Assembly: GCF_000264995.1 (NCBI RefSeq)
Contig: NW_006767445.1
Coordinates: forward strand, 566,084-630,083
DNA length: 64,000 bases
Reading direction: 5' to 3'
From: Punctularia strigosozonata HHB-11173 SS5
Taxonomy: Eukaryota; Basidiomycota; Agaricomycetes; Corticiales; Punctulariaceae
Shown: piece after piece, positions 13,290 through 58,900 of the stretch
Layout of the letters: every line of letters starts with the position of its first letter
How positions within the stretch are numbered: position 1 is the first letter of the stretch
Position numbers and translations under genes: made by a program
Notes under the pieces: model-generated
What the model saw: only the letters and a program-made list of their open reading frames with translations
What the model was told of the DNA's origin: nothing
The model's database searches: none

Positions 13290-16200
13290 TCACAGCACCT
13301 TAACTTTCGCACCGCTGCTCGTTCTGAACGATTTCAGAGTCTTTCCCCCATACACGATCCGCACGTTCCGCGGCGTCACGCCCCCGTCCACCGTGACGTT
13401 CGCGTGGGTGAGCTTTCCGCCTGACCACGCAAAGTCGAACGTGATCCCGCCGCGGAGGCGGGCGCCAGTGATCGAACCCGTAGGCCAAGCGCTCGGGAGC
13501 GCGGGAAGGAGCGTGACGACGAGGGTGGCGTTGGCCGTCGGAACGTCGGGCGCTTGAATGAGCGCATTCTGAAAGAGGTGATCGATGTCAACCTCGAGAG
13601 GACGTTGTGGGAGAAGAGACCACGTATGACGCACCAGTACGGCGGCGGGGTAGCCGAGGTTGGCGTCGATCTGGAAGATCGGGTCGGGGTCGGCGGGATC
13701 GTACAGGCTGAACAGGTTCGGCCCAAAGTCCTCCGAAAGCGCGTACTTTTTTTCCCCCACCCGCTCGTCAACGATCCGCAAAACGAGCGACAGATGACGG
13801 ACCGAACGGGACGCTCACCGTCAGCTCGTGATAAAACCCGGTCGCGTTGCCGAGCTGTGCCCACGCCGCGGCGCGCCAGACCTTCTCCCAGCCCGCGTCC
13901 GCGTCCGGGCCCGTGCCGTTCCCGCGATGGATGAGCGACGTCGTCGCGGCGGCGATCACCTCGTCCTTCGTGTAGTTCGCCTGGTCGGCGTAGGACGCGA
14001 CGGCGTAGCCCGGGTAGAGTCCGATCAGGTGCGAGAGGTGGCGGTGGGTATCCGTCGGCGAGTCCATGTCGACCTTCCACTCTTGGAGCTGGCCCCAGGA
14101 CCCGACGTGGACGCCCTTGTCCATCTGCGCCTTCTTCGCCTTGACCTCTGCGGCACGATCCGTCGTCGGTCGTTAGCTGGCGCCAAGGCCGAGATCGTGT
14201 TGGGGGAAACACCCACCGGCGAGGAAGGCGGCGTCCGTGTCACCGGACGCGGGCCACCCCTTCTCGATCGCGTTGAGCAACATCCAAATGAGCTGCTGCG
14301 AATGCGCGCAACCGAGGGTGATGGGCAGCTGCTCGGGCGAATTGCAGGGCGCGACGACGAGCGTCGAGTCGTTGAAGTGCGCGTCCGGAATGAGCTTGCC
14401 GAGGTGGAACCGCGCGACGCCCTATTGTAGTCGACAAAACGAGCGCGGTGTGTTAGGAGCGCGGCTGGCGGCGCGGGAAGGCGGGAAAGGGAGCGCGTAC
14501 CTTCAGGAGCGGGTAGCCCTGGCTCCGGAACCAGGCCACGTCGTGCGTGTAGTCGAAGTGGTCCCAAACGTGGAGCATCTAGGAACGGACGCGCCGTTGA
14601 GTACTAACCATCTCGCCTGTCGGGCTGAGCGTACCATCCACGCGTTAGACTCTGCACAGTACAGATCGCTATCAGCCTATCGGCGACGCGACGACAAGTC
14701 CGCGATGCACCCGCTCACCTGGGTAATTCGCCCACTGCGCGCTGCCCGTGCCGCCGGCCTTCATCCCGGTATGCCCAAAGATCTACCCGTGCAAATAGAC
14801 AGTCGTCAGCTACAGGACGCTATCATGAACCCTACACGGTGTACGTTGGCTCACGTTCATCTCGTTGTGAGTGACCCATCCGGTCAGGTTGTACAGCACG
14901 TTGGCCGTGTACGCCCCGCGCGGAGCCCACGTTTTCTGTTGCGGGAGACAAAGTGCATTAGCATATACTAAAACGACCGAGCACGCAAAAACAAAAAAAA
15001 TAAAAAATGTTTACCTCCATGTAGTCCCACAGGCTCTGGGTCACGTCTAGGTTGGTCATCTCCGCCGCCCAGTAGTTCATCTGCACGTTGATATTCGCGT
15101 CTAGCGGGACAAGAAACAGACGCGCATCAGCATCCTTCCTCCGAGTGCTCCAAGACGCGCCAGCGACGTACGATAATCTACGGGGGGGAAAGGGCACACC
15201 GTCCCAAGTCAGCACCCAGGTCGCCGCATCAAGGGCAGGCCCCCCAAAAAAAACGCACCGGCCGACCAGGCGCTCGCGTACCCGTTCGCCCATTTTCCCT
15301 GGAGGTTGGCGGGCAACGACCCGCGGGCGCTCGACAGGAGCATGTACCGCCCCAGGTTGAACGCGAGCCACTCGAGGTACGGGTTCCCCGCGTCCACCGC
15401 GTACGCCGCGCGCAGCTCGTCCGTCGGCGTGCCCAGGTCCGACGCGCCCCACCCCGCGCCCAGGCGGAGCGCGAACTTGGAGATGGAGCCGGCGAAGTCG
15501 GCCGTGTGCGTGTTCAGCGCGGACGAGAAGGAGGAGGAGGGAGAGGAGGAGGAGGAGGAGGAAGGGGAGGGGAGGAGGGCGAGGAGGGCGGGGTGCGGGT
15601 CCGCGCCGGCGAAGGAGAAGCCGTGTGCGGCGTCGCCCGCGGAAAAGTCGTAATTCGTGCCGCCGACCCAGGTGAACCACGCCTCGGAGGCGCCGTGCAC
15701 GGTGATCGTCGCGTTCTGGCCCGGGCCTGGCTCCGAGATTTTTTTATTAGCTTGCGCCCACCGCTCAGAACGCTATATGTGGGACCGTCCTTACCTTGAG
15801 TAGAGGCGGTGGACGAGACGGGGACGGACGAGCAGCTGACGGTGGGGTTGGAGCCGCCGGCGGTTTGGACGCGGACGAGCAGCTCGTAGAGCATCCCCGG
15901 CGCGCTCACGAGCCCGCGCACGCGCAGCGTGCCGTCGTCCTCGCACGTCACGTTCGGCAGGAGCGGCACGTCGCTCTCGGAGTAGTTCGACCACGCGAGC
16001 GTCAAGGTCGGGAGCGCCGCTTTCGTCTTCTTCGATGTGGAGGAGGCGGAGAGGTGTTGCACGCACGCGCGGGCGGGGTGCGAGCAGAACGTCTGCCGGG
16101 AGAACGCCGTGCCGTTCACGGTGAAGGTGCTGTGCGCGACGCCGGCGTCCATGTCGAGCCAGCGCGCGTAATCGGTGTAGGCGGCGGAGGGAAGGTCGAG

Positions 16201-16826
16201 CGTCGCGAGGAGGTAGCCGGCGCCGGCGTAAGACCCGTATGCGCCTGCGTCGGTCTGCAGTTCGCTGATTTCTGTGCAGGGTCAGCACGAGCTGGGGGTG
16301 CGGAGGATCCGAATGAGGGGAGTGACCTTGGATGGTGCCCGTGGGCGACTGCATGATCTCTTGCCGGTAGGTCTGCATCCATTGGGACAGCTCGGCGGTG
16401 TCGTTCGGGAAGTCGTTCCCGCCGTTATACGTCTAAGAGAGGGCGAATTTCGTGAGCGGATGGGAGCGACTCGAGGCGGATGTAGTAATGCGGTCGCTTA
16501 CGGGATCGGCGAAGGGTCCGCCCGACCAGAGCGACTCTATGTTCAGCTGGACGGCTTCCTGTGCGACACCGCCGTTGACCATCGCTGCATGCATATACAC
16601 GCCCTCGTCAGCTCCGTCCCAGTAGGTTACGGTAAAAAAAACGGAAGAGCTCACCGGCTAGGTACCCGTTTCCGACGGGGAGCCATTCGCGGCCCCAGGC
16701 GACGCCGGGCGTCGTGAACCACAGGCCGTTTCCCGAGCTCGGGAACCCGGCTGGCGCGGCCCCGGCGCGCGATTCGGAGAGGGCGAGGGCGGCGGTGGTG
16801 AGCGCACTGAGACGGCGCCAGAGCAT
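13290..16826 (-). CDS. GH95 family alpha-L-fucosidase-type glycoside hydrolase
   Basis: Secreted enzyme expected to release alpha-linked fucose or related sugars from plant cell-wall polymers. The ATG at 16826 begins a signal peptide ([20 protein letters not shown]), followed by the family start [20 protein letters not shown] and [15 protein letters not shown]. The middle carries [18 protein letters not shown]; the Asn-x-Asn pair is part of the known GH95 catalytic site. Later come [30 protein letters not shown] and [14 protein letters not shown] Ser run is encoded at about 15520-15580. Introns are consistent with the frame, for example one from GTGGGT near 14219 to GCCGCAG near 14150. The gene looks intact and is very GC-rich compared with the flanks. 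It lies in tandem with a broken GH28 gene, which suggests a former cell-wall degradation pair. Confidence 0.9.
15520..15580 (-). repeat. Low-complexity GGA/GAG run coding for a Ser stretch in GH95
   Basis: Purine-rich triplet-like repeat on the plus strand. On the coding strand it gives a run of serines between [14 protein letters not shown] and [10 protein letters not shown]. It probably forms a surface loop and may vary in length between strains. Confidence 0.6.
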
Positions 16827-18939: not shown

Positions 18940-19628
18940 CGTTCTCTCGAGTCGGCTGGTCTAGAGCTGAATAAAGAAAGGGTAAGTATGGGAGTCGAAG
19001 CCTGACGAAGAGGTATCGTGGGCTCGCCTTTTGCGAATTTATATACCCCCCCTCAGCATTGGATGGAACCTCTTGGCCCGATGACATTATGGGTCGGAAC
19101 ACCGGACCCGTTGTCCGTATCGCCCGTCATACTTCTCGTCATCTCCCGACGTCGGCGAGCGTGCCGCGAACGTGCGCGGAGGATCCTGGGGGTACGCGAG
19201 ACCGGGTCAAGTGTGCGGGGAAGCAGGTCGCATTGAATGGATTTGGCGCGGTCCGGAAGGTCCGAGCTTGCGTCCGAATGGCTGTGTCGCGTTTTGAGTT
19301 TGGGCGCTTATGACGACGTTTCGCCTCGAGACGGTGTGTCGAATGCACCATGCGCGTCCATGGATCCGATCGGTTTGTTCAAGTTGAAGAGCTGGATCGT
19401 CCTGTTTGGTATAGTACCGGCGACCACGGATGCTGCAGTTTTTGCTGGAGAGAGAGCGGGGAGAACGACGGGGAGGACGTTACGCGCCAGGCAACAGCGA
19501 TACCTATATCACGATTCGCAAAGATGGGGGTTATTGAATGACGGCCGCACGGCATAGAGCTTGATGGGCAAGTATAGAACGTTGGTGACTGGGCAAGGTG
19601 CTGCAGCGAATTCGAGCGCAACGGGAGA
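18940..19628. other. Upstream region of the GH28 relic
   Basis: About 690 bases with a TATA box at 19038-19045 and no coding region that can be supported. Confidence 0.4.
19038..19045 (-). promoter_or_regulatory. TATA box of the GH28 relic
   Basis: Read on the minus strand this is TATATAAA, about 100 bases upstream of the GH28 ATG at 18939. It matches the fungal consensus well. Confidence 0.5.
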
Positions 19629-19636
19629 GGCTAACC
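19629..19636. repeat. Left target-site duplication of the hAT element
   Basis: GGCTAACC directly abuts the left end of the element and recurs exactly at 20029-20036. Confidence 0.85.
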
Positions 19637-21764: not shown

Positions 21765-24110
21765 ATGGTTTGCACGCGAGCCCTCGTTTGTCTCGGCCTC
21801 GCCTTCACGGCAGCGGTGCAAGCTACCGAGGTCATGCGCCGACCGGACAACTACAAGAGCGCGCCTAACGTCTTTCCCACGGAGAACGTCACGCCGCATG
21901 TCATCCACAAGCGCGCGACGGCGAAGGTGCAGGCAGCTTACTTCACGAACTGGTGCGTGATCCGCGGTGTCCCCGTTGCCACGAGCTGATCGCGTTCCAC
22001 CGGAATCCAGGGGGATCTACGGAGCCAATTTCCGTATGTTACCTATTCCACTTTGCCGCGAACTCTGCTGACGGCCTTCAACAGAACCTACGGACATCGT
22101 TCCGGAAGACCTCACCCACATCATCTACGCGTTCGCTGATGTCCAGCCGGACACGGGCACGATTGTCCTCACCGACTCGTACGCGGACGAGCAGGTCGGT
22201 CCTTCGCTCCATGAAAGACTAGGTCAACGATCTGACCGATCCCGTACTACAGAAACACTTCGACGGCGACAGCTGGGATGACACGGGCAACAACCTCTAC
22301 GGTTGCCTGAAGCAGCTCTACCTCATCAAGCTCGCGAACCGTAACATCAAGACGCTCCTCTCCATCGGCGGATGGACGTACTCGCAGGACGGCCACTTCT
22401 CGTTCGTCACCGACGCCACGAAGCGTGCCACGTTCGTCTCCTCCGCGGTTTCCATGATCCAGAACCTCGGGTTTGACGGCATGTGAGTGGAGGGATCGGA
22501 TGAACGCGCAGCAGGCATTGGTACTGAGGCGGAGACGGTCTGCGCGCAGTGACATCGACTTTGAATACCCCGCAAACGCTGCCGAGGGACAGGGATTCGC
22601 GGATCTCCTGACGTCCCTGCGGTCCGCATTCGATACCCTGGCCACGCAGAACGGTGACACCGTGCCGTATCAGCTTACGGTGAGTATCATAGCCGTCATG
22701 GGAGAACGTATTGCCCACGCCACTATCAGGCTGCTGTCGCCGCTGGTCCCGCCAACTATCAATACTACGTCGTCCCTCAGATGGACAAGGCACTCACATA
22801 CTGGAACCTGATGGTAAGCGTTTACCTACTCGACAGCTAGAAGCTGCCCTCATTTATGAGGTGTCCGCTGCAGGCTTACGATTACTCTGGCTCCTTCTCC
22901 AACATCGTGAGCAAGCGCGATTTTGCTGCCCTCCGACCATCAACTCACGTTTTCCACGCAGACCGCTCCTCAAGATAACGTTTACGGTGGTGCCCTCACC
23001 GGTTTTAGTACCGACGCGGCCATTCAGTGGTACTTCGCCAACGGGGCTACTCCGTCGAAGATCAACTTGGGCATGCCTCTGTACGGCCACGCCTTCGAGA
23101 ACACGGCCGGCATGGGCTCTCCATACGACGGCGTACGATTTCACCCGACTGGAGCCCATTAGCCTGATTGCTCACACCCTGATGTAACCTCAGATTGGCC
23201 CTGGCTCGATCCAGGCGGGAATCTACAGCTACAAGGACCTGCCCATCGCCGGTGCCCAGGTCTTTGAGAACGTCACGGAGATTAGCAGCTACTCGTACGA
23301 CAGCAGCAAGAAGGAACTTGTATCGTACGATACTCCCGACATCGTCAAGCTGAAGACCCAGTATGTCATGGACAAAGGCCTTGCGGGCTCCATGGTGAGT
23401 GCTTCCCCTCACTTCAGGCATTTTTTCAGTGCGTTGATTGCTTTTCAGTTCTGGGACGTAAGTCGTGTCCGCCAGAACCTGGTCTCTGGTGATGCTGAAC
23501 TACGGACAGCTCTCGACGGATAAGGTGGGCACCGACTCTTTGGTGGGAACCAGCCACCAGGCCTACAGTGCTCTCGACCAAACTCAGGTACTGTCCCGTC
23601 CATCGAGATGATGCCGCGAGCCTGCGCTGATGGTCAATCCATTCATTATCGTAGAATCACATCAAGTGAGACTGTCTTGTTTTTTTCATGAACCACGGGA
23701 TGGTACTGATCTCTACGCCACCAGCTACCCCGACAGCGAATGGGATAACATCCGTAACAACATGGCCGGGAGCACCACTTCTACTACCGCCGCAACCACC
23801 ACCGCGCCCGCAACCACCACCGTTGCTCCGACCACCACCACGGCCCAGACCACCACCCCCGCGACCTCCACGACGTCGTCGACGGGCGGATCGCTCACCT
23901 GCGCCGGCGTGGCGGCGTGGAACAGCGCGGTCGCCTACACCGGAGGCCAGTCGGTCACGTACGGTGGCTTCCTCTGGACCGCCAAGTGGTGGACTGAAGG
24001 CGACACTCGTAAGCGCGGAAATCGAACCCGTGCAATGAAAAAAATATCGACTGATCAACTTTCCAGCTGGTGGGGCCGCCGGCGTCTGGACACAAGGGGT
24101 GAGCTGCTGA
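21765..24110 (+). CDS. Secreted GH18 chitinase with Thr-rich linker and CBM5/12-type C-terminus
   Basis: Hydrolyses chitin, either in wall remodelling or in feeding on other fungi or insects. A signal peptide starts at ATG 21765 (MVCTRALVCLGLAFTAAVQA). The barrel follows: VQAAYFTNW, DLTHIIYAFADVQPDTG, IKTLLSIGGWTYSQDGHFSF, the catalytic motif FDGMDIDFEYP (DxxDxDxE, Glu as acid), QAYDYSGSFSNI, INLGMPLYGHAFENT and AGSMFWD. A linker of Thr/Pro/Ala (about 23765-23890) leads to CAGVAAWNSAVAYTGGQSVT and LWTAKWWTEGDTPGGAAGVW, the Trp-rich pattern of CBM5/12. The final intron (GTAAGC near 24009 to CCAG at 24066) gives the end VWTQGVSC. About ten introns; no frame problem was seen. Confidence 0.93.
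23765..23890 (+). repeat. ACC-rich repeat encoding the Thr linker of the chitinase
   Basis: Imperfect ACC/ACG triplets encode Thr with Ala and Pro between catalytic and binding modules. Such linkers are usually O-mannosylated and vary in length. Confidence 0.65.
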
Positions 24111-24359
24111 TGGGAGGAGCCACATATTGGACGCATATCAACATGATCTATCCTTGCTGCTTTCCTTGGGTTCCGAGCTCATCATGTATGTACCAACATC
24201 GCTAGAATGGACCAAAGGCATAGTCAACCCTCTCGAGGAATGCGCTGTTTACACATGCCCATTTATGCCTTGAGTCCCCCCTAGATGCATACAGCCTGTT
24301 GTGCGCCAGGCCCTCACGTCCTGGCCCGAGCATACACGATGATATCCGTGAGAAATGGT

Positions 24360-27300
24360 CTACAAATACAATGACGAGCAGAATATGACTGAATTCGGGC
24401 GTTCGAGCATCTCGGATGCCTTGTCGAACTTTTCTTGGAGCTCGGTGTTCCCGATGACCTTGGCGGCCTGGTTCATCTGGCGCAGCAGCTCCTGTAGGCG
24501 CCTGAACACTCGGATCAAGCTGCCTTCGAATTGGTCCGTTAGCTATAAGCAGAACCGGCATTAGTGTGCGTGTCGTAGGGCGATGGCGATCATTCAATCA
24601 CCTTCAGGATGTCCGAGAACGACGCGCCCCGGCACCACTGCACTACGGCATCCATTAGCTCGACCTTGAAGGAAGAAACGTATTCGTCTTCGACCACGGG
24701 AAGCTTGGACTCTTGTGACACTTTAGCTATCCGTCTCGCGATCTCCTGCATGACACGCAACGGCGCGGCCAACTCTTCCTTCAACTTCGTCACTTGTTCG
24801 CTCTGAGAAACCACGTCAGCTCTAGTGACGAACAAGGATGGATGGCTCACACCTTTTCAGTGAAGACAAAACAGCTGAGCAGTCCGGCGCACTGCTCAGG
24901 AGACAGCGGGTTGAAGACACCGTTGAAGATGAGCTCCGTCAGGAGTAACTCGTCCCCAGTGCTGATCTCGCAAGCAACACGTCCTTTCATGTCCACGATA
25001 TCGGCCGAGTTCGTGAACCCTAGCCTGCGCAGCACCCGTTTGCGGCACTTGAGCTCCTCCAGTTGCAGCACGTCGTTCGTCGCCTGTATGCGCTTCTTGA
25101 GGGCACGTATCCGCTCTCGGGCTTCCTCCTTCTTGGCATACGCCGAGTAGAGCTGGGGTAACCGCGGATCCTTGTGGAGTGGGCTTGAAAACATCTTTTT
25201 CTCGAGCGTGTCGATTTTCTGAGCACCGAGCAGACATTAGTTCATGAACAATAACAAGGTGACAAGGTCGTTTACCTTGATGAGTTCCATGAACTTGGCG
25301 TCGTCAATCTTCATGTTCTCCACTGGATCCAGCAGCGGGATACCGTCTGGAAACCGCTTCTGCACCTCCAACACGCTTTTCCAAGTGGTCTCCCTTGCCT
25401 GAGGCTGGCGTAAGTCCTTTGGTAGGTATATGCGCAAGTGGCTAATCGCGTCGATGGTGCTGAGGAGGACGGGCACAACGAGCGCTTCACTCTTCTCGCC
25501 GGATTTACAGGGCCGAATTCCTCCGGGAGTAGAGGTGGTGACGGAGGACTTGTCTTTAGGGAGGGAGGAGGCAGAGCCAGTAGCGCAATTGAGAAGCACG
25601 TCCAGGATGTACTGCTCGTGCGGAGGAATTTCTTCGGATTTGGGCATTGGTCGGTTCTGTGAGCGTGATAGCAGTTCAGCATATGGTACACCGGAAGTGA
25701 CAAACGTCAATTACCTTGGGCGGGAGACGCTTTTGATAGTTTATGATGATTCCCCAACCGAAATCGAGGTCTTTGTGTTTGACCTTGACCAATCGCCCAG
25801 GCTGGAGGAATGGTAGACTGTACGTAGGATGCGTGACTACCTCCCGGAAGTCGGCTGACATCTGGTCAAGCTGCTGCCTACACTGGTAGTATTCGGCAAT
25901 GGCCTTCTCATCCTCCACCACAATTGCGTCTCTCGCTTCTTCTTCCTTCTTCAGTTCTACGGTCGGGGGTTATCATGTAAGATCGATGCTGTACGCCAGG
26001 TGTAACTCACGATCTTCCAACATCGGAACACCTGCCTGGTTCTGGAATTGGAAGAAACACCGCTCGAGCATGAACTCCGGGCTGATGCCCTCGACCTTCA
26101 TCAAGTTCAGCACCATGTTGTACCCCAGATGGAACGCCGAATCGAGCCTGTCGGCCTCGCCTTTGATCATGTTCTTCGCCGCCGCAGGCTCGAGCTTCTC
26201 GTCGCACATCATGATGACCACACCGCGATCGTCGAGACCTCGTCGACCCGCGCGACCCGACATTTGGATATACTCTCCAGACGACAAATCCCGAAATTCA
26301 CGCCCGTCGAACTTGCGTGTTGCGGTGAAAACGACCGTCTTCGCGGGCATGTTCAAGCCGATGGAGAACGTTTCGGTGGCGAAGAGCGCCTTGATCAGAC
26401 CCTCTTGAAAGAGAATCTCAATCACTTCCTTGAGGATGGGCAACAGGCCTCCGTGATGGATACCGATTCCTCGCTTGAGCAAAGGTAATAAATTGGTGAT
26501 CTGCGGAAGGGAGCGATCGGCGGGCGCAAGGTTCTCGATGGCGTTATTGAAGATATTTGTCACTAGGTCCTGCTCGTCCTGGGTGTTGAACTCCTGTTTG
26601 CTCAGCTGCAGCGCGAGAGCCTCACATTCGCGCTTGCTGAATGCGAAGATGATGACCGGGTTGTAGTTCTTCAGCATGATCATCTTGATGATCTTTGAGA
26701 TATCCGAAGGCCCTAATCTGCCGGTCAGCGGGTCGCGCCTCTGTTACCTGGCACACCTACGCACCTTTCTTGTCTCCACCTTTCTTCGTCTTTCCCTTCC
26801 TGCCTTTTCCGCCACTCTTCGGGTCTGCTGGATCCTCGCCCTGCTTTTCGGCCAACGTGCCCATGGCCTTGCTAAAATTGTCCTCCCTGAACTCGCCTTT
26901 CTCGTTCACCACGAGATATATGCCCTCGCCGCCCGCCGGGAATAGGTAGTGTTGTAACGGTGTAGGTCGGAAGTCTGTGTAGACTACGTGACAGGGTTGT
27001 TCATGGCTCTTCGCAATCCACTCAGCGAACTGCATCGCATTCGGTATCGTGGCGGATAGGAAAACATATCTAACATGGGTAACACGTCAGGATGATTTAT
27101 AAATACGAAAACCACGAGGAAAACGCACCGGACGGAGTGCGGAAGTAAGATGATCGTTTCCTCCCAGACGACACCTCGCTCCTTGTCGCGCATATAGTGA
27201 ATTTCGTCGAAGATGACCCATGCTACTTCACGCATTATCTCGGAGCCACGGTAAAGCATCGAACGCAGAATTTCGGTGGTCATAACAAGACAGGTTGCGG

Positions 27301-28102
27301 AAGGATTGATGGTCACGTCGCCCGTCATAAGCCCCACGTCCCCAAATTCCGCAAGCATTTCACGGTATTTCTGGTTACTGAGCGCCTATACGCGCGTATT
27401 CAAGCTCCGTTCGGATACTAGATTGGGGTCATCGTACGTACCTTTATAGGACTGGTGTATATAACCCTCTGCTTCCTCTCCAAACACTGTGCGATCGCGT
27501 ACTCGGCAACAACTGTCTTCCCCGCACTAGTGTGGGCCGAGACGAGTACACTCTCGTTTCTCTGTATCGCGTGCACCGAGACCTGCTGGAAAGGATCCAG
27601 CGTGAATTTGTAGGTCCGGGCAGGCTTGGCGGGTGGGACATGTTGTGAAATGGGAACGTAGGGATATCCTGGGGGCACAGCAACTTGATGCCTGACCTAG
27701 GCACATGTACAACGGATGGTATGAGCTCATGTTGGAGTGAATAGTATTGAGAGTAATTACTTGGTGCCGCAACTCAAGCCGCGATCCCTCCTCAACACTA
27801 GCACCCGTCAACCCCGCACTGGCGTCAACCTCGCGCTTCGCCTCCGTCTCGAACTCGTCTACGACCACCGGCTTTGGAGACGCTAGACGTGGTTTTTTCG
27901 GCGGTATCTCATGGGCCGTCCGGGATTCCGGTGCATCGCCGTCTAGTTTGCGTTTCGCGCCCCCGTCCGGAGAAGCGATCCGATCAATTTGCATTGCATC
28001 GTGCTCGCGTTCCTGCTGCTCCTCAAGATCCTCCTCTACCTCGTCGACTTCAGGCTCCTCAGGAGCTCCGTCCAGAAAAGAAAACAGGTCGTTGGAGTTC
28101 AT
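24360..28102 (-). CDS. mtr4: Exosome-associated RNA helicase Mtr4 (Ski2-like DExH)
   Basis: Nuclear 3'-5' RNA helicase of the TRAMP/exosome pathway that unwinds rRNA and aberrant RNA for degradation. N-terminus acidic with basic patches ([20 protein letters not shown] ... [12 protein letters not shown]). Then [20 protein letters not shown], Walker [37 protein letters not shown], Walker [38 protein letters not shown] and motif [19 protein letters not shown]. The arch region follows ([20 protein letters not shown]), then the helical bundle with [20 protein letters not shown] and [12 protein letters not shown]. It ends SLYL, as Mtr4 proteins do. The ATG at 28102 is preferred over an in-frame upstream ATG at 28171. 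About nine short introns. Confidence 0.96.
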
Positions 28103-28965
28103 GGCAAGTGGTGGTCCAGAGTAAAGCGCCGAGCTAAAGTCGTGCGGGAAGTTGGTGGAGTATCGGCTCAAATATGTGTGGTTGCGTCTTGGTGCAGTAT
28201 TTCAACGAATAACAGGACGGTGAGCCCCAAACCAAGAGTTCAGGATCTTCGCTCAGCTTGAATCCAGCGGATTCGAAAACCGGGCGGGTGGCTATGCTAC
28301 TTTTAGGTCAGGTGCAGTTCGGCGTTCGCCGAGATCCGGTAGCTTCCGGTAGCGAACAACAACCGTTGAACAACGTCGTCCTTGTATTTCGTCGAGTTCA
28401 TACTTACTTGAGCCCTGGTTCGTTCTCGGCCTTCGTGAGGCAGGGATGGCTCACGGTGACGATTATGGAAACGGTGGCTTTCACATCGGACAAGTGAATC
28501 ATAATCGCGAGCGATCGACCCCGTCGCTCCCGGTATGCGTCGCTGCATGCGCACAGCTCACAATCCGAAGCTCTCACAGGCCGTGAACGTGTCTGCGCAC
28601 AATCAGTCTGCAGGAATACACTGCTTGCTCAATTCTACGGCTGTTACCGTGGTCCGTGGTATTGCGTTTCACTAGCTTTCGGCATCGGATTGATCTACGC
28701 GTCTTTGTACTGGTCTCCACGCGATTCGTCTCCGGAGCCAGCTCCCGTCGCGGCCTGGTGCTCATCTCGGAAGAAGAAGGCACAGGGACGTTGTGGACTC
28801 TTATTGTCCGCCCGAATCTGGACATCGTACGCCTTTCTTGGCGGATCTGCAACGCCAACGACGACCAAGGGCTCGCCGTCTCATACACAGACGCCCACTA
28901 ATTATGCCGCTCATGGGCGCTTTGTTCATGTAATCACTCATCGGCGTACTTATATCGTAGGAGTC
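28103..28965. other. Divergent intergenic region
   Basis: About 860 bases between mtr4 (-) and the single-module gene (+). No supported gene or repeat. Confidence 0.4.
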
Positions 28966-29013
28966 ATGATCGACTGGCACTCCTCATATCTCGTCACAAC
29001 GCTCCTCGCCCCC

Positions 29014-29935
29014 ATGTCTGCAACTCGTCAGGAAAGAATCAATTTCATCGAGGCTCACCGTATTTTCCTTGAAACCATCGATCTCATCGAGGCCAATATC
29101 GACATCTGGAAGGTTCGTACGATCCAACCGATGTCCACTCAGCCTCTTTCTGATTGCTCCTTTTTTTTACTTTCCCCAGAGGGTCAGGAATGACCATTCA
29201 ATCAAAGAACCCAAGATCGCCTCCTCTTATATTCGCATGCCTGACGGTCTACCGAGGGGCCCAGAAACCATTGGAAGAGCTGCATTCTGGGAGATGATTG
29301 CCCGCCCCGAGGCCCCATACTGGCATCGCGTGGAGTCGCTTCAGCCTGCTTCGCCGCAGTACCGTTGCGAACGGGACCGCGGTATCTTCCGACATGTTGC
29401 TCGTCACGCGCACAGTCTCTTCCGGCACTACGGCGATAGAGGTCAGGAAAGCCAAAAGAATAACCAGCTAGCGCTTATGGCGGCGGCGGCGGCGACCTAT
29501 GGATTGATGATTTGGCGTGACAAGGTGGATGCGCAGCCCGAGCGCGCGTATTGGAGAGGGACTGACGAGGAGGTGCGGGACTTGGCTCGTGAGTTGTGGG
29601 AAATCGAGGCCGCGGTGAATGAAGATGCGGATGCGGATGAGGATGAGGATGCGGATGAGGATGAGGATGAGGATGAGGATGAGGATGAGGATGAGGATGA
29701 GGATGAGGACGAGGATGAGGACGAGGACGAGGAAGAGGAAGAGGGAGAGGGAGAGGATGGTAGCAGCACGGATGAGGATGAGGATGCGGATGTAGATGTG
29801 GATGAAGATGAGGATAAGGGTGCTGTAGGTGAAGAGTACGGGCTGAGAGATGGTCAACAACGTGAGGAGTGGTCGAGCTACATGGACGTCGGGCCCATCT
29901 GTGTGCAGCCTGCCGCCGCACTGTACTATCAGTAG
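29014..29935 (+). CDS. Single-module protein of an unrecognised family, Asp/Glu-rich tail (about 284 aa)
   Basis: I do not recognise this family. Exon 1 (29014-29112) encodes MSATRQERINFIEAHRIFLE and TIDLIEANIDIWK. A clean intron (29113-29179, pyrimidine-rich end CCCCAG) leads to exon 2. The module core is ETIGRAAFWEMIARPEAPYW, which matches the pattern I-[GA]-x-A-[AV]-[FV]-W ... P-x-W seen twice in the next gene. After a helical region (LALMAAAAATYGLMIWRDKV and LARELWEIEAAVN) comes a tail of about 65 residues of Asp/Glu. No signal peptide or membrane helix; nuclear or cytosolic location is likely. An upstream in-frame ATG at 28966 would add 16 residues. The acidic tail suggests binding to basic proteins, but that is inference. 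Confidence 0.6.
29621..29820 (+). repeat. GATGAG/GATGCG hexanucleotide-like repeat encoding Asp-Glu
   Basis: Nearly uninterrupted GAT-GAG units in frame produce the acidic tail of the single-module gene. Purity is highest around 29640-29710 and decays to the right, which suggests slippage growth. Confidence 0.8.
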
Positions 29936-30736
29936 ATACGTATATTCATTACCAAGTACTTAGTCTACCGTATTTAGATCACTCGATCGTAATTATAATT
30001 GACTCCTGCTGCTTAGATCTTGTGTCCAACACACAATTCACCTCATTGACGCGTCTACGCGGGCCCTCGCGTCATGAACCGAGGGTGGCTAGTTCTTGTC
30101 GCCGCATTTGGCAGTGTTTGTCTCGGCCGGGCCCTTCTGCTTCCGAAGTCGTCAACGCAGCTGTTTTCATCGATGTATGGAGACGCGGCTCAGACGATGT
30201 TCAGTCACTTATCAGCTTCAGGATCTGCTCATGAACTCCGATGATGTCGCGCGCTGTTAGTCATGGCGATAAGCAACCCAAGTTGACAACGCAGCCAGGA
30301 CCTGCTTCGAGGGACAAATCGGTATGTAGTCAGTTTATACCCGACGTACAAGCCATATACCCGCCGCATACTGAGGCAGTTATCCAGACGCAGATATGCA
30401 AGCTCTATGGGATTTGGGCCATCCGTGGTGCTTTCGCTCCACGATGCTCTCGCGTTATGCGGCCAAGCCCGAATCCCTCTTTGTTCGCCTGGAAAGGAAT
30501 CGGGACGTGCGTCTCGGCTGGTCATAGATACTCTGTGGGTCCATGTTGCACCGTCGCGCACACAAACTACAGCATCATACGCTCCTTGTTCACCCATGGC
30601 TCTTCGTCACGCACGCGAGCCGTAGCGTTGACAAGTTCCTTGTTCAGTGCAGGCCTTAAGTACCGCGACTGTTCAGGACAGGTATGAAGTTCGAAGCCAT
30701 AGAATCTGCCGGTACCGTTCTGCCTCTGCTGCCGTG
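29936..30736. other. Intergenic region between the two modular genes
   Basis: About 800 bases. The only item worth noting is a small frame with a signal-like start at 30074-30244. No further module copy was seen. Confidence 0.4.
30074..30244 (+). CDS. Possible small secreted peptide (56 aa), weakly supported
   Basis: Short frame starting MNRGWLVLVAAFGSVCLGRA, which has the shape of a signal peptide (short basic start, hydrophobic core, small residues). The rest is LLLPKSSTQLFSSMYGDAAQ and a short tail to TGA at 30242-30244. No homologue is known to me, and a 56-residue frame can arise by chance. It lies alone between the two modular genes. Confidence 0.2.
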   Translation: MNRGWLVLVAAFGSVCLGRALLLPKSSTQLFSSMYGDAAQTMFSHLSASGSAHELR

Positions 30737-31939
30737 ATGACGTACAACGCTCGTATCAACGACGCAGATTGTATACAAATCTTCATGGAGTCCATGCGAG
30801 ACCTGGAAGACCGTGTCGAGGAGATAGTGAGTGACGCCGCCCTGCGCCGTATTTGGCAAGTACCAATCACGTTTTAAGCCGCTATGGGACGAATATCTCG
30901 CCAAGGATCACGAAGAAGCTGCAAGGTTCTTCCAACTAACATGGAACGCCAAAGGCGTGGATCCAGAGGATATAGGCATGGCCGTCGTATGGGACATGCT
31001 TGCGGGCCTCGACGAACCGCCTTGGCGAGCTCTCGTCAACGGAGAAAGGCATCTCTACGCAGACATTGCCTATCAAACTAAGGAGCGCTGGTTGTCCCAT
31101 GCCGATGTCGCGTATAGGACACTCGAAGATCTCTGCGAGGCACTTCAGGCCGCTGCAGCCTCAACCTCCGCATTCCTTCTCTGGCACCGCCAACTCCGTA
31201 TCCTTCCGTACCCTCCTCTTTCAACCCCGCGGGCAGAGGCCGGTAGGCCGGTAAGAGTATTACCTACTTGCTTTGAAGCAGCATACGATCCATTCTCCTG
31301 CCATATAGGAATTCCGAGATCACGCTGATTACGACTACCTCTGCCACGTTCTCAATAGTATCGACAACGATGCTGTCCAGTATGCAGTGAGTGCTACTCG
31401 TTTGATGACCGCTTGCGCAAGCATTGAACCATCTTCGATAGCGTGTGCCACAGTGGGATACATGTTATGCCCAATTAATCGAGAGGGTTTCCTCGATGCT
31501 TTCCAAGCCGAAGCGCTCCTTTGGGTCACAAGATATAGCAGCAGCCGTCGTATGGCGCGCGCTCGTTAGCGAGAACGCGCCTCTATGGAGGCAAGCTCAA
31601 CGCTTGAACCTGGTGGCTTGGCCCGGATCCATATACCACGACGAGCGTCGCAAGATCTTACACGGGCTTACGGCGAGGACGCTGCATGTATTCAGCGAGT
31701 GCGAGGGGACAGACAAGATGTGGAATCGTTACTACAAAACCTTAGATGAGGTTGCGTACATGGCGTATTCCTATCTGCGGAAGGAGGGCAAAGTACCTTC
31801 TACCCCGACTTGCGCCGATTTCTGTGGGACATACGACGACATCAACGTTGCTACGAAGAACAGAGATCAGAAGAGGAGGATGGAGGATGTTCCGGACTCC
31901 AATCGCGCGATCAAGAGGAGATTCATTGCGGGTGATTGA
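30737..31939 (+). CDS. Double-module protein of the same unrecognised family (about 347 aa)
   Basis: Four exons join without frame loss: 30737-30826, 30861-31250, 31309-31386 and 31454-31939. Module A has MTYNARINDADCIQIFMESM, then after an intron YQSRFKPLWDEYLAKDHEEA and PEDIGMAVVWDMLAGLDEPP-WRAL. Module B has EFRDHADYDYLCHVLNSIDN, then after an intron WDTCYAQLIERVSSML and QDIAAAVVWRALVSENAPLW. In both modules, and in the neighbouring gene, an intron follows the first helix-like segment, so the unit seems duplicated with its intron. The intron between modules (31251-31308, GTAAGA..TATAG, phase 0) removes what would otherwise be a stop 78 bases later. The tail is basic (RNRDQKRRMED ... AIKRRFIAGD) and could be a nuclear signal. 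No function can be assigned. Module B could instead be a separate gene whose start is hidden, but no ATG in frame supports that. Confidence 0.6.
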
Positions 31940-33003
31940 AGACTCCTTTTATGATATCCGATGCACGCTAACGCATTATATCGGACAGTACCTCCTCAAG
32001 TCGAACATTCTTCGCAAGATTGGAACGCGTACCATGGCGTGGTCGCTCGAGGTCCTGCGCAGGTCAGGCATGTCGCGCGGTTGACGATATGACGTCAGCT
32101 GAGAGTGCATATGAACGATACTCTACGTCCAACGAAGACCGAATTCCTGGTATGATCATTCCCGATACCAGGACGAATAGTGATACCACATTGTACATTG
32201 CTAGCTTACGTTGTACATCGGTTTGCCCAGGTCAAGCTGCCTGACCCTCGATGTCCCTACCGATATCCTATATACCATGTGTATACGTACCTATCCTGAT
32301 CGTTATGAACACGGCTTGAAATTGTTAAATCAAATGTATTCAGCTCGTATGCAAGCTCTTTGCGAGATGCATAGTCTTCATAAACGCGCCTTCCTTTTCC
32401 CCGTGCGGATATTCGCAGGGGAACTACCCGCAACCGGCAGCCCATGAGGTATTCCTTAGGTGCTTACTACGAGTACAAGAGGGTGCAGTATTATCCGAAT
32501 GGACGAGGAAAGTGGGACGCAATGTGGATTGAACGTACTAGGTACGAGTGAAGCCATGTAGGGGAATAAATGACGTGGAACACAAAGCGGATGGGCGGTC
32601 GGAGGAGGGGATTGAAGCTGAACATAGCTAAGATGAGGGGTTTCTAAAATTAGCGATGCAAGGGACGATGTGGCGAGGGATGCGATGAAAACCAGCGAGA
32701 CAGCAAAGCGCGAGCAACAACACGAAGACATGGAGGCAGGTAGGGTATGACAGTCCGTTCGGGCTGATGGGATCGAGTGGAGGCGAGGGACGAGAGGTCT
32801 TCGGCAACTTGCTCGGGCCTCAGTCACCTAAGATGTTGGGCGGCGATTGGACGCGCATGACAGTGCATACAAGACCCGCTCAGGAGCGAAACGGGAGTGT
32901 CTGGGCTGTGGCAGCGTGCCGCAAGAACCAGGAACGCGTCGCATTCCGTCTACCCACGTCAACGGTGTGGAGGCAGGATGACAGACTCGCAGGTTCCTAA
33001 CAC
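31940..33003. other. Convergent intergenic region of about 1.06 kb
   Basis: Lies between the double-module gene (+) and spg1 (-). Several small frames, none matching a family. No repeat seen. Confidence 0.4.
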
Positions 33004-33887
33004 TCATACATCGACGTAGATGAGTATGGGCTCCCCGACACCTTCGATCTCGGGGATGACGCATTTGAGATCGAACGCCTTCGCAAGCACGATCTTGAAG
33101 ATCTTCTGTACATTGATTGACGCCGAGGTTGAACAGAAGATCAGTGATGCATGCATCGCCTTCGCGAACCGTTTCGCCTGAAGGGTACGAGTTAGTGATC
33201 GTAACATAATCAGAGGAAGATGAGACATGCCTGCTTCGTGATTTCCTCCTGCTCATCTCGCGGGAAGGTAGCGAAGGTGTCGAACTTGGTACCAATGAGG
33301 AAGGGGATGGCCGTCTGCAGTTTCGATGATATGAGCAACGTGTATACAGCAATCAAGGAAACGCGTACCTTATTGAAGCCTCGTGCCTGCCTATACCACT
33401 CCTTCACCGAGTTGAGCGTCGACTTCCGCGATAGGTCAAACATGAAAAGGATCGCCACCGCGTCATTGCACACGAGTGGTAGCATGTTCACGAATTCGCG
33501 CTGGCCTCCGAGATCCCATATCGAGAACGTGATCGTCGTTCGCCGCACGCTGATGGTCTTCTCCATGAAGTTCACGCCTGTATGGCGTGAGCTAGTCGAT
33601 AGGAGTGAGGACGAAAAATGCGCATACCAAGTGTTTGAATATAATCCTCGTCGAAGCTTCCCTCCACATACTTCACCATTAAGCTCGTCTTCCCGATTTG
33701 CGAATCGCCTACCATCCCCACTTTGATCACCACGCTGCTGCTACACGAACATGTAATCAAAACGTGCGACGTTGGTACCAGTGCGATGTGCGTACTTATT
33801 CTTATCATCGGCAGTATCTACAGCCTGTCCGTTCTGCGCGGCGGTCGATGACCCAGCTGCATTAGATGAAGACGCCAACGCGGACAT
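33004..33887 (-). CDS. spg1: Septum-promoting Ras-like GTPase Spg1/Tem1
   Basis: Small GTPase at the top of the septation initiation / mitotic exit network, acting at spindle poles. After a variable start ([20 protein letters not shown]) an intron leads to [20 protein letters not shown] (P-loop), [19 protein letters not shown] (switch I), [20 protein letters not shown] (DxxG), [39 protein letters not shown] in the guanine-specificity position, [20 protein letters not shown] (SA-like) and [16 protein letters not shown] at the end. There is no C-terminal CAAX, as expected for Spg1. The [20 protein letters not shown] block separates this group from Ras and Rab. Four introns. Confidence 0.96.
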
Positions 33888-35039: not shown

Positions 35040-37798
<2,759 letters not shown>

Positions 37799-38111
37799 GC
37801 GAGCGATACCAAGCTATTACTCGTATCGTATCGCTGGGTTCATCTGTACTTTTAGTTAGTCAACAACCACAAAAGCATCGTTCGTACTTCAGCTGTGCGC
37901 GACTTTGGCTACGCACTGCGGGTTTCAGCAGCACGTACAAATTCGCCGAATATCCACCCTCATCCCATTCGAAAGCTGTGCAACGCAACAGCGCGTTTGG
38001 ACCACGTCACATCCAGATTCCGCTGGCTGCCCCGCATCCTTATAATACTACCGTTCACTTTCTCCTTTTCGCTGGATCGTACATTCCTTTGACCACCCGG
38101 ACACCTCTGGC
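37799..38111. other. Intergenic region
   Basis: About 310 bases between the CDH and mannosyltransferase genes, both plus strand. Nothing specific seen. Confidence 0.35.
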
Positions 38112-39399
38112 ATGCAGCCCCGCTCAAGACCTGCGGGAAACCGCGCCTTGTCCATTATACGCTACGTGATACGCCAACGCACGTTCCAGCTGGTATCCGG
38201 TTTCCTATTGCTATGTTTCATCTATCTCTACCTGTTTGCCGGCGGGTCCAGCACCTACACTCCACCGCATACCGGGCACGACGATGCGGATCCGACGAGG
38301 AACACCATACATGCTAGCATCATAGTGCCGACGTATCATGAACGGGACAACATCCGACCGCTAGTCACCAGAACCTTCGCTGCACTCACCCAACCCACTG
38401 TGACGGAGATTGTCATTGTGGACGACAACTCGAGGGACGGGACTGTGGAGGAGGTGGAGAAGCTGCGGGAGGAGGGCTACAACGTACGAATAATCGTACG
38501 GACGGATGCGAAGGGCCTATCGTCCGCGGTGCTGAAGGGCTTCGAGGAAGCGAGGGGAGGCAGCTTGGTGGTAATGGACGCAGACCTACAACACCCACCG
38601 GAAGCCGTGCAACGTGTCATCGACGCACTGGACGATCCGACCACTCCATTCGCACTCGGAACGCGATATGGTCCAGGAACCCATATGAGCGAGAACTGGC
38701 CTATATATCGCCGGATTATCTCCTGGGGAGCTCGAATCCTCTCTCGGCCCCTCACGACTGCAAGTGACCCTATGACGGGTTTCTTTGGCATCAGGAAAGA
38801 ATTTGTGAGTCCTGTTACCCGTGTCGACGTCACAAGTCTCCCAGCAGACATTATGCACGATGCGGGCGTACCTACGGCACCCGTTGACCGCCTTCATACC
38901 TGGCATAGCCTTATCCGCAGCACACTCGCTGATACCTCCATAGTTCCTTCGCACCGCTCCCATCAACCCCACAGGATTCAAGATTGCCCTCGAATTGCTA
39001 CTGAAAGTACCACTGCCGCCCAATGGCATCGCTGAGGTGCCGTACGACTTTGGCACAAGGACAGTGGGCGAATGTAAGTAGTTACATACTTCATACAGCG
39101 CCAGGATTTGCTTGCTCAGTTGCTCCCCAGCAAAACTTTCCTCCAAAGTCATTCTGCGATATGTCGGCCAGCTAATCAGCTTATACTACTGGTCATGGGG
39201 TCTCATCTTCCCCATCGTCTCCGGGCTCATCGTTGGCTGCGGCATTGTGACGTGCATGTTTGCTTACGACGTATGGTAGGTGCAGGATCCCAGCCCCCTG
39301 GGACATAATACAGGGCTATATCTCATCCTATTCTCTAGGCAAGAGCGCCGATTGAGAGCGCGATACAGCCGAAGGATGAAGCTCAAGTCGGAGGTGTGA
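38112..39399 (+). CDS. Dolichol-phosphate mannosyltransferase-like GT2 protein
   Basis: Predicted ER enzyme that moves mannose from GDP-mannose to dolichol phosphate, the donor for N-glycans, O-mannosylation and GPI anchors. The GT2 domain shows ASIIVPTYHERDNIRPLVTR, EIVIVDDNSRDGTVEEVEKL, VRIIVRTDAKGLSSAVLKGF and SLVVMDADLQHPPEAVQRVI with the DxD-type site, then ALGTRYGPG and SDPMTGFFGIRKEF. After introns near 38805-38942, 39075 and 39277 come INPTGFKIALELLLKV, VPYDFGTRTVGE and a hydrophobic segment ISLYYWSWGLIFPIVSGLIV. An N-terminal helix (LVSGFLLLCFIYLYLFAG) is also present, so the protein looks anchored at both ends. It ends RMKLKSEV. It could be a DPM1 paralogue rather than the main enzyme. 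Confidence 0.82.
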
Positions 39400-39991: not shown

Positions 39992-40843
39992 ATGGCCGCT
40001 CAACGAGGTGCGTGCCGTCGTTGCAGAGACACATGCCACAATTCTGACGCTAACATGTCTTGTTCTATCCAGGTTCGTACTGATTCTCGATCCCTCGACA
40101 ATATATGCTCACTTGACCAGGTGGAGGCGCTTCCGGCAACAAGTACCGCATGACCCTGGGTCTGCCCACCGGCGCCGTGCTCAACTGCGCGGACAACAGC
40201 GGAGCCAAGTCGCTCTTCGTCATTGAGCCGTTCGGGACTGGCGCGCACTTGAACAGGTTGCCCGATGCTGGTGTTGGCGACATGGTTGTCGCGTCTGTGA
40301 AGAAGGGAAAGCCTGAGCTCAGGAAAAAGAGTGAGCTTCGATCCTTTGTCGTGTTTCATCCTTCAGTGTGGAGGGCGTCGGATGTCGGGAAGCGGGCGAG
40401 GAGGGAGGAAGATTGGCCGGTTAAGCCAGCGCGGTTGAAAATGTGGCTGATGGTATACGGCGCTTGTGTTGATGGATACGGACGGGGCTCTCGTTTAATA
40501 TCGTCCCTCACTACTTCTGATACTGATTGTTTGTCTACTCTAGCCATGCCCGCCGTCGTCGTCCGCCAACGCAAGGCCTGGCGCCGGCGAGATGGCGTCT
40601 TCCTCTACTTCGAGGACAACGCCGGTGTCATCGTTAACCCCAAGGGTGAAATGAAAGGATCTGCTATCACCGGGCCTGTGGCGAAGGAATGCGTGAGTGA
40701 TCTCTCGTCTCACCCGCCGTTGTTACTCTACCCTCGTCTGCTACCTGTTTGTTTGTCAAGTTCGGACCGCTAACTATACCATATCCTGTTCACAGGCCGA
40801 CCTGTGGCCGCGTATTGCATCAAACGCGGGCACAGTCGTATAA
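39992..40843 (+). CDS. rpl23: 60S ribosomal protein L23 (uL14)
   Basis: Component of the large cytosolic ribosomal subunit near the factor-binding face. A very short first exon encodes MAAQR. After a long first intron (to about 40121) comes [60 protein letters not shown] and GKPELRKK. A second long intron (about 40331-40542) precedes [20 protein letters not shown] and [21 protein letters not shown] third intron (about 40694-40795) precedes [15 protein letters not shown] at the end. Introns longer than the neighbours' are common in ribosomal protein genes. Confidence 0.97.
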
Positions 40844-55964: not shown

Positions 55965-58900
55965 CTATTGAACCTTCTTTTCGGTCTCAGCAGCAGCAGC
56001 TTTGGCTGCCTCCTCTGCCTTGACCTTTTCCTGCACCGCTCTCCTTTGCTCCCGCCGTTCGCGACCCCGGGTGACAAGCGGCTTCGGCTCAAGATCTGCG
56101 AAGAAATACTTGCAGACCTTTTCAATGATATAACAGCCAACGAAGTCAAGGGCCATCGACACGGAGAGCCTGAATTTGAACTGTGGCGGATATTCAGCAA
56201 TGCATACCGCCATAAACCAAGTGTTGCTTACGAAGCCTGGCATCTCCACAATCTGCAACCAGCGGTTGAGTTCCGGCATGAAGTCGGTAGCACCAGAGAC
56301 CGCCACGGATTGGGCACCGACCAAGCCCCAATACAGGTACTTGTTCTCCCGGATACTCTCGCGGAATGGGCGACCCTTGGATTGCGCATTAGCGATTTGA
56401 CAATCATTCGGGCTGCAGGGAGCCGTACCTGGTAGTTGATGGCAAAGGTGGATACTTGCTGTGACAGACCGAGGAGGTAAATGGCAGTGTTGAGAAGGCT
56501 GGGCTCGAATTTGGCATCAAGGTCGATAGGACCACGCCTGTGGGAGTAAATTCTCAGAATGTTAACGGTTAACGGAGCTTCATTGTGTACTGACTCTTCA
56601 TTACTGTGAGCGAGATTTGTGATGTATACCATCGTCACGATATGCAGAGCAAATTGCAGCAAGACCGAGAGCAACACGTAGAAGTTGAAAATGTTCCCTA
56701 AAGGACGCTCCCGGGATAATTTCTCAACGGGCTGGGCAAGCAGAGTCAGGGCTGCTATTGTGGGGATGATGGACGGTGTACCTTAGCTCGTGAGATGCAC
56801 AAGAAGCATACCGACATTAACATGCCAGTGATGGTGACCTGGTAGTCCCCATACTTGATGCCATCAAGATACTGCACGCTGAGACTGTAGGCAGTGATGA
56901 GACAGTTCAGGGCAAGAATCTTGTACATCTGAATCGTGGCCACAAGGGTGCAGCGGCCCTGCCGGATGATACTAGTAACTGGAATAGGGTAAGATAACTA
57001 AGTCGAAGCTGAAAACGAAGCCGGGTCTTACTGGCAGAGACGTTGGAGAGCTTGGACGTGAAGGGTGCAGCACAGCTGGCGTCACCCAACTTGATCTTGG
57101 GTACATCTTCCTCGTCCATCTCCGACATCTTTTCCGTGAGCGCGCTCAGGTCGAACTAGTTTTAAGCATTCAGTGGTAGGTAGTATCCCTCTGATGAACG
57201 GCGAACGGACTCTTTCCGCAGGATTTCTCTGTCTCGCTACCTGAAGGTCCTGCGCGACCTGCTGCTGCGTCTGTACGAGCTCGGGGAATGCCTGAGCGAG
57301 CGCGGGCGGCACCGGTGGCGGCGGTTGATTGAACCGCTGTGTCAGCTTCAGTTGGCTCTCGTACACCTTCTTCATGCGTAACAGCCGTTGATGCTCCGCA
57401 ATCTTCTGCAGATCCTCCGGAGTGCCGTCCAAGAGCGCAACACCGATATGCGCCTGCTTGAGAGCACCGACGTCGTTCGTTCCGTCACCAGCCATAAGCG
57501 TTGTGTATCCGAGCACACGGAGGGTGTTGAGTATTAGCTCCTTCTGCGAGGGAGATACACGCGCGTATACCCATGTATTCTGGACCAGCTGATGCAAGCT
57601 CTCCTCGCGATTCTCGTATTGTTTGAGCGCTGGGCCAGTAATGCAGACATCGTACTCGTCAAAGAGGGAGGTGTCCAGCGGTTCAGCAGGGTTGACGGGG
57701 ACGCTCTTGCTATCATCCACGGTACGCCATACCAGGTCTGGGCAAGGGTTAGCGAAGAAGCTCGAAAAGGCACCGGCAAACTCACCTGATTCGCTGGCAG
57801 CGTTTTCTTTCAGGTCGAGGATAAGCGCGTCCCGATCCACAATCTCAACATCCTTCGCTACATGAACCGCAGTGAGAGGGTTATCACCAGTGATCATGAT
57901 GCACTGCAAAATAATTCATCAGATTCTGAGAACCAACGGCTGGGGGAGCCACGCACGCGATGTGACGAATCCGCGAGCATCTGCAGGGCTTGCACAGCAT
58001 CCGCCTTAAGTGGGCAATGGAATACCAAGAAGCCAGCGAACGTCAACCCGTTCTCTACTTGATCCCGAGGCAACTTGTTGATCTTCTCTACGCTCATGCT
58101 ATCGCCCTCCTTCACACCGAGAGCGAGCACTCGGCTCCCTCGGCGGGTGAACCACTTGAAAGTATCGTCGTAACCCTCTGGCACCTTACTCAACATACCC
58201 TTGATCGTTTCCGGCGCGCCTTTCACTGCGATAAGGGTGCGCCCGTTTGGAAGCGACGAAACCGTCGACATGCGCTTCAAAGCCGAGGAGAACTGGAAAC
58301 GGCGCCTGATGCGGATAGCGGCAGACGTGTTCGTAGCAGCCTCCGGGGAGACCGTGTCGCCTATATACACAAGCGATGGACATGAGTTAGGTAGAAGGGA
58401 CAAGAGGACCACTGCTTACCTTTGTCGACCTTCCATTTGAGCGCTTCCAGTGTTGTCTTCTCCATCGGGTCACCCACGACCGTTCCATCATCCAGCCTCA
58501 CAAGCGCGTGCGCGGCGGCCAAGCACAGGGTGGTTTCCTTGGTCGTTTCCTTGACGTCTACAAGCTTCAAGGGGTCCTTCACGCTGATTCACGGCACACT
58601 TATCAGCACCTATGTAGATCAACGATAGCAACGCGTGAAGACCTACTCGACGCCAGCGACACCCTCAACGACCAAGTTCTCGGCAGTGATCGTGCCAGTC
58701 TTGTCAAAGCAACACACATCTACGCGGCCAGCGAACGGAATTCTGAACGGTTCCGTGCAGAATATAGCTAAAGCATGGCATGTCAGTCCCCATTGACCCA
58801 CGAGCGGAGTGACACGACCTACCGAACTTAGAAAGCGCCACGAGGGACGCATTCACGGCAAGCGATAGCTCCATCGGCAACTCGGGCGGCACGACACTGG

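Follow-up and report, generated by a model that had tools for sequence, protein, structure and literature searches.

Two tandem predicted genes of Punctularia strigosozonata carry three diverged copies of a module from an unnamed family

What do three similar stretches of coding-like DNA, lying in a row on one strand, encode, and do they descend from one ancestor? This question is raised by the + strand of region 29014-31939 in the window, that is, the whole stretch of 64,000 nucleotides from contig NW_006767445.1 of Punctularia strigosozonata HHB-11173 SS5 that was analysed. An earlier note on this DNA had described three copies of one module there, referred to below as m1, m2 and m3. The region is predicted to hold two genes, and both reading frames are open. 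The spliced model of gene 1 encodes 284 aa and that of gene 2 encodes 345 aa (Table 1). Each of the four predicted introns is in phase 0, measures 52-67 nt, begins with GT and ends with AG. We propose, with a probability of about one half, that these are tandem genes of an unnamed family, whose modules would be soluble, helical and intracellular, perhaps nuclear, and would bind protein partners. The bulk of the weight behind this reading comes from the homology demonstrated among the modules.

Table 1. Modules and predicted exon-intron features of the two genes
Feature	Position	Strand	Gene	Basis
Module m1	29014-29620	+	gene 1	
Module m2	30737-31250	+	gene 2	
Module m3	about 31309-31840	+	gene 2	
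Exon 1, 33 codons	29014-29112	+	gene 1	ATG-started open frame; similarity to m2 exon 1
Predicted intron, phase 0, GTTCGT...CCCCAG, 67 nt	29113-29179	+	gene 1	sequence and frame
Exon 2: bulk of m1 (as far as about 29620), then acidic tail and stop	29180-29935	+	gene 1	open frame; homology with m2 and m3
ATGAGG hexanucleotide array, coding for Asp/Glu tail	29619-29819	+	gene 1	Tandem Repeats Finder
Exon 1, start of m2	30737-30826	+	gene 2	ATG-started open frame; similarity to m1 exon 1
Predicted intron 1, phase 0, GTGAGT...TTTAAG, 52 nt	30827-30878	+	gene 2	sequence and frame
Exon 2, core of m2	30879-31250	+	gene 2	open frame; homology; frame test
Predicted intron 2, phase 0, GTAAGA...ATATAG, 58 nt, m2-m3 junction	31251-31308	+	gene 2	sequence and frame
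Putative exon 3 (26 codons) beginning m3; the least well supported exon	31309-31386	+	gene 2	open, phase 0
Predicted intron 3, phase 0, GTGAGT...CGATAG, 55 nt	31387-31441	+	gene 2	sequence and frame
Exon 4: core of m3, C-terminal tail with KRR-x11-KRR, stop	31442-31939	+	gene 2	open frame; homology; tail motif

Three open modules were found where the earlier note had placed them, each with I-[GA]-x-A-[AV]-[FV]-W followed by P-x-W. A module is about 130-160 residues long, and the signature reads I-[GA]-x-A-[AV]-[FV]-W-x2-[LI]-x5-P-x-W; the invariant columns of the three-way alignment include I, A, W, P and W. Smith-Waterman scores of the full modules (BLOSUM62) were 101 for m1-m2, 66 for m2-m3 and 54 for m1-m3, and exceeded those of shuffled sequences by 13.0, 7.0 and 4.8 SD for the three pairs. 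None of 1000 shuffles scored as high for m1-m2 or for m2-m3, and 4 of 1000 did for m1-m3. With BLOSUM45, no shuffle of 1000 reached the score of any pair. All pairs of modules are therefore similar above chance. Identity is nevertheless low; m2 is 24% identical to m1 and 17% identical to m3. The copies would have arisen by an old tandem duplication and have since diverged to about 20% identity overall.

This similarity resides in the predicted protein. When the main exons were compared in six frames, the claimed frame gave the strongest signal (z 10.9, 6.7 and 6.0 for the three pairs), and the DNA-level z values were 1.8, 2.4 and 1.4. The 15 other frame comparisons gave z of -0.9 to 3.5, except for one m2-m3 antisense frame, which gave 5.3. 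Because antisense frames reached 5.3 in the main exons of m2-m3 and 4.2 in the first exons of m1-m3, a single z of 4.2-5.3 is no proof. Since the main-exon signal lies in the claimed frame with little in the DNA, the main exons look like old coding paralogues, duplicates under protein-level selection. Furthermore, when one module was omitted from the profile, m2 (E 8.4e-5) and m3 (E 0.0013) were each recovered as the best non-training ORF, and m1 came second (E 0.042), after an ORF at 19382-19630 (E 0.016) that probably matched by chance. The common origin of the modules, proposed in the earlier note, thus stands in shuffle, frame and leave-one-out profile tests. In a profile search of the 1587 stop-to-stop ORFs of at least 25 aa in the window, six exceeded the inclusion threshold, and all of them were known exons. 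The next-ranked ORF, at 19382-19630 (E 0.11), was considered as a fourth copy and was taken as a chance match; it shares little beyond the motif and looks non-coding.

Codon use gives no support for coding, because the synonymous codon scores of the three main exons (-0.036, -0.012 and -0.092 per codon) are near the stop-rich null (mean -0.089, SD 0.057, 95% point 0.005). Housekeeping stretches scored 0.038 to 0.161; the same stretches trained the score, which biases their values upward, and training used a small set of just 640 codons. This weak codon preference, together with the low identity of m2 to both m1 and m3, would fit pseudogenes, that is, decaying copies of a once larger gene family. 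However, the frames are open throughout both predicted genes, and similarity peaks in the claimed reading frame. We therefore consider decay quite improbable.

The predicted intron interrupting each module agrees in phase (0) and in distance to the motif among all three, as had been claimed; it precedes the Ile by 30 residues in m1 and by 31 in both m2 and m3. The claim of a shared first exon was borne out for m1 and m2, whose first exons show a modest similarity (9 of 10000 shuffles were as good, a figure that became 27 of 10000 with anchoring at the intron), but not for m3. No similarity was seen between the first exon of m3 and either of the others; 4705 of 10000 shuffles scored as high against m2 and 6441 of 10000 against m1. 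For exon 1 of m1 and m2, the frame test gave a z of 4.2, which one m1-m3 antisense frame equalled, and the evidence from exon 1 is therefore weaker than that from the main exons.

Are m2 and m3 parts of one protein? The intron proposed to join them has a donor/acceptor pair, and the predicted spliced frame is open. In the frame of the first exon of m3, a TAG stands immediately before 31309 and no Met precedes the exon's own donor. This exon can therefore be reached only by splicing, barring a non-ATG start, and, if it is real, an upstream exon must be spliced to it, an argument for the fusion. Thus, a two-module gene is most likely, judging from the predicted splice sites and frames. Two variants should be mentioned: m3 could instead start at Met 31496, and the stretch 31309-31386 might not be an exon and be skipped in gene 2. 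A different arrangement would consist of three single-module genes, in which m2 stops at 31326-31328 and m3 begins at Met 31496 or elsewhere. Both frames are indeed open without splicing of the joining intron, and the dissimilar first exon of m3 also fits this arrangement. However, if m3 began at Met 31496, it would lack the P-x-W-D beginning to which m2 aligns, and m2 would run on for 25 residues that have no counterpart. In addition, the GTAAGA donor and the in-frame 58-nt intron fit a splice well. Three separate genes are, in our view, unlikely, and we prefer the two-module gene.

The two-module gene had been attributed to an internal duplication, and this was not supported. Similarity between m1 and m2 is greater than that between m2 and m3, which speaks against gene 2 being the product of a recent internal duplication. 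We infer either that old copies were joined or that an ancestral gene had two modules and gene 1 descends from its first half.

No named family was recognized, in agreement with the earlier note; searches of Pfam-A, NCBIfam, PHROGs and PDB sequences gave no match passing threshold. With hmmscan against Pfam-A at E up to 10, m1, m3 and the two-module protein matched no family and m2 alone matched two weak DUFs (E 0.089 and 0.21), in a search whose query excluded the far end of gene 1 and whose HMMER filters discard most matches with E beyond about 0.1. NCBIfam gave one weak match, to m2 only (E 0.014; its score was 14.4 bits and the cut-off is 370), and PHROGs gave matches for none of the three modules. 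Among PDB sequences, the module profile had one weak match (E 0.16), m1 had none and m3 had two (E 1.2). The three-module alignment gave 18 pattern matches in viral contigs and 249 in prokaryote genomes, and none was confirmed. Likewise, the main exons of m1 and m3, used as single queries against viral contigs, gave four matches and one, respectively, none confirmed. The m1 main exon also had one weak partial match among plasmids (E 0.05, 36% covered). This absence of relatives says little because the collections searched were viral, prokaryote and plasmid, none of them of fungal genomes. The family is probably specific to a fungal lineage. In the literature, no title among the papers listed pointed to such a module family, as judged from titles and the opening parts of abstracts. 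Scanning the window for tRNAs and Rfam families gave nothing.

An origin from a mobile element was also considered and rejected; no inverted repeats of at least 18 nt were found in 28100-33100. Apart from the hexanucleotide array, the direct repeats in this interval are 18-29 nt only. A short direct repeat (23 nt, 83%) lies inside exon 1 of gene 1 at 29032-29093 on the + strand.

Structure models were made for the main exons of m1 and m3, with exon 1 excluded, using AlphaFold2 and a three-row alignment as input. Both models are essentially helical and of low confidence, with a mean pLDDT of 60.7 for m1 and 46.2 for m3. Their helices are at matching positions, although the two models come from the same three rows and are hence not independent. 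A helical layout of the module is therefore suggested at low confidence. Foldseek comparison of the m1 model with the PDB gave 28 matches at E up to 10, none below E 4, and comparison with a viral structure library gave 73 matches at E up to 10, with a best E of 1.4. By hydropathy, no membrane-like segment was found in either protein (maximum 19-residue Kyte-Doolittle mean 0.88 and 0.94), which agrees with the earlier description of the proteins as lacking membrane segments.

Could the modules be extremely diverged HMG-box-like DNA-binding domains? The module spacing W-x2-[LI]-x7-W equals W-x2-L-x7-Y of yeast NHP6A, with an aromatic residue 11 places past Trp in each case. HMGB proteins have acidic tails, and gene 1 encodes one. 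However, no HMG family was reported by hmmscan against Pfam-A at E up to 10 (most matches above about 0.1 being dropped by the filters). Against NHP6A, the sole member tried, hhalign of the three-module alignment gave a probability of 0.2% and did not align the motif. The hydrophobic residue that precedes Trp is 6 places away in the modules but 8 in NHP6A, and the 28 PDB matches of the low-confidence m1 model include no HMG structure. A diverged HMG box was rejected as unsupported, despite the Trp spacing, and we regard it as very improbable.

The tails that had been described for the first and third copies were supported only in part. Gene 1 does encode an acidic stretch, in which 57 of 82 residues are D/E, but this stretch is not the terminus, since a non-acidic end follows it. 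It is encoded by an ATGAGG array of 33 copies with 83% matches. Nuclear proteins with acidic tails exist, and by analogy with them the acidic tail of gene 1 may be functional, or it may be a by-product of microsatellite growth. The tail of m3, which had been called basic, is only mildly so, since the final 60 residues of gene 2 comprise 12 K/R and 9 D/E. It contains KRR-x11-KRR, which we take to be a bipartite nuclear-localisation-like pattern. Such a motif also arose in shuffled sequences, 100 times in 5000 when the whole gene 2 protein was shuffled and 77 times in 5000 when only its last 60 residues were, and it is therefore suggestive only.

The cluster lies between conserved genes. To its left, on the - strand, pieces of an MTR4-like exosome helicase occupy 25976-27385, with Helicase_C and the MTR4 stalk in the ORF at 25976-26743 and DEAD in that at 26987-27385. 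To its right, also on the - strand, is a piece of a Ras-family small GTPase (33213-33740), presumably Spg1/Tem1-like. Neither neighbour suggests a function for the module. Further along the + strand are pieces of a GMC oxidoreductase (36594-37442), a family 2 glycosyltransferase (38046-39032) and ribosomal protein L14/L23e (40117-40770). Elsewhere in the window, an ORF matching a carbohydrate-binding module of family 5/12 lies at 23612-24202 (+ strand), and a Glycosyl hydrolase 65 N-terminal-like domain lies in a G+C-rich stretch at 15517-16281 (- strand). Two ORFs at 57085-59778 (- strand) carry E1-E2 ATPase and HAD-hydrolase pieces and probably belong to a single P-type pump gene. The gene content and the style of the introns suggest fungal DNA.

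How might the two proteins work? Gene 1 would supply one module with an acidic tail, and gene 2 two modules with a short tail carrying the bipartite nuclear-localisation-like motif. The module may be intracellular, perhaps nuclear, and may bind protein partners. The two modules of gene 2 may bridge partners, and the acidic tail of gene 1 may contact basic partners such as histones. A more specific proposal is that a new all-helical domain of a fungal lineage forms a tandem nuclear adaptor, in which one paralogue has an acidic tail mimicking histones or DNA and the other has two modules and an NLS. This proposal is a long shot. At present, the cluster is one small tandem group, a real but modest finding whose function is inferred only. 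If the family is widespread in related fungi, it would deserve a domain entry, and its motif would help to annotate some of the many fungal genes that lack a named domain.

Two kinds of known systems can be compared with these genes. HMG-box proteins are helical, as the modules are according to their low-confidence models, and share the W-x2-L-x7-aromatic spacing. In contrast, the modules have no HMG profile match, differ in the spacing before Trp, and are neutral to acidic (pI 7.1, 4.6 and 6.2). The second kind is a general class, the unnamed gene families that are specific to fungal lineages and carry no Pfam domain. Like genes 1 and 2, their members are small, intron-bearing tandem paralogues with no named domain, lying between conserved genes. 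What is known to distinguish genes 1 and 2 within this class is the Trp motif and the probable fusion of two modules.
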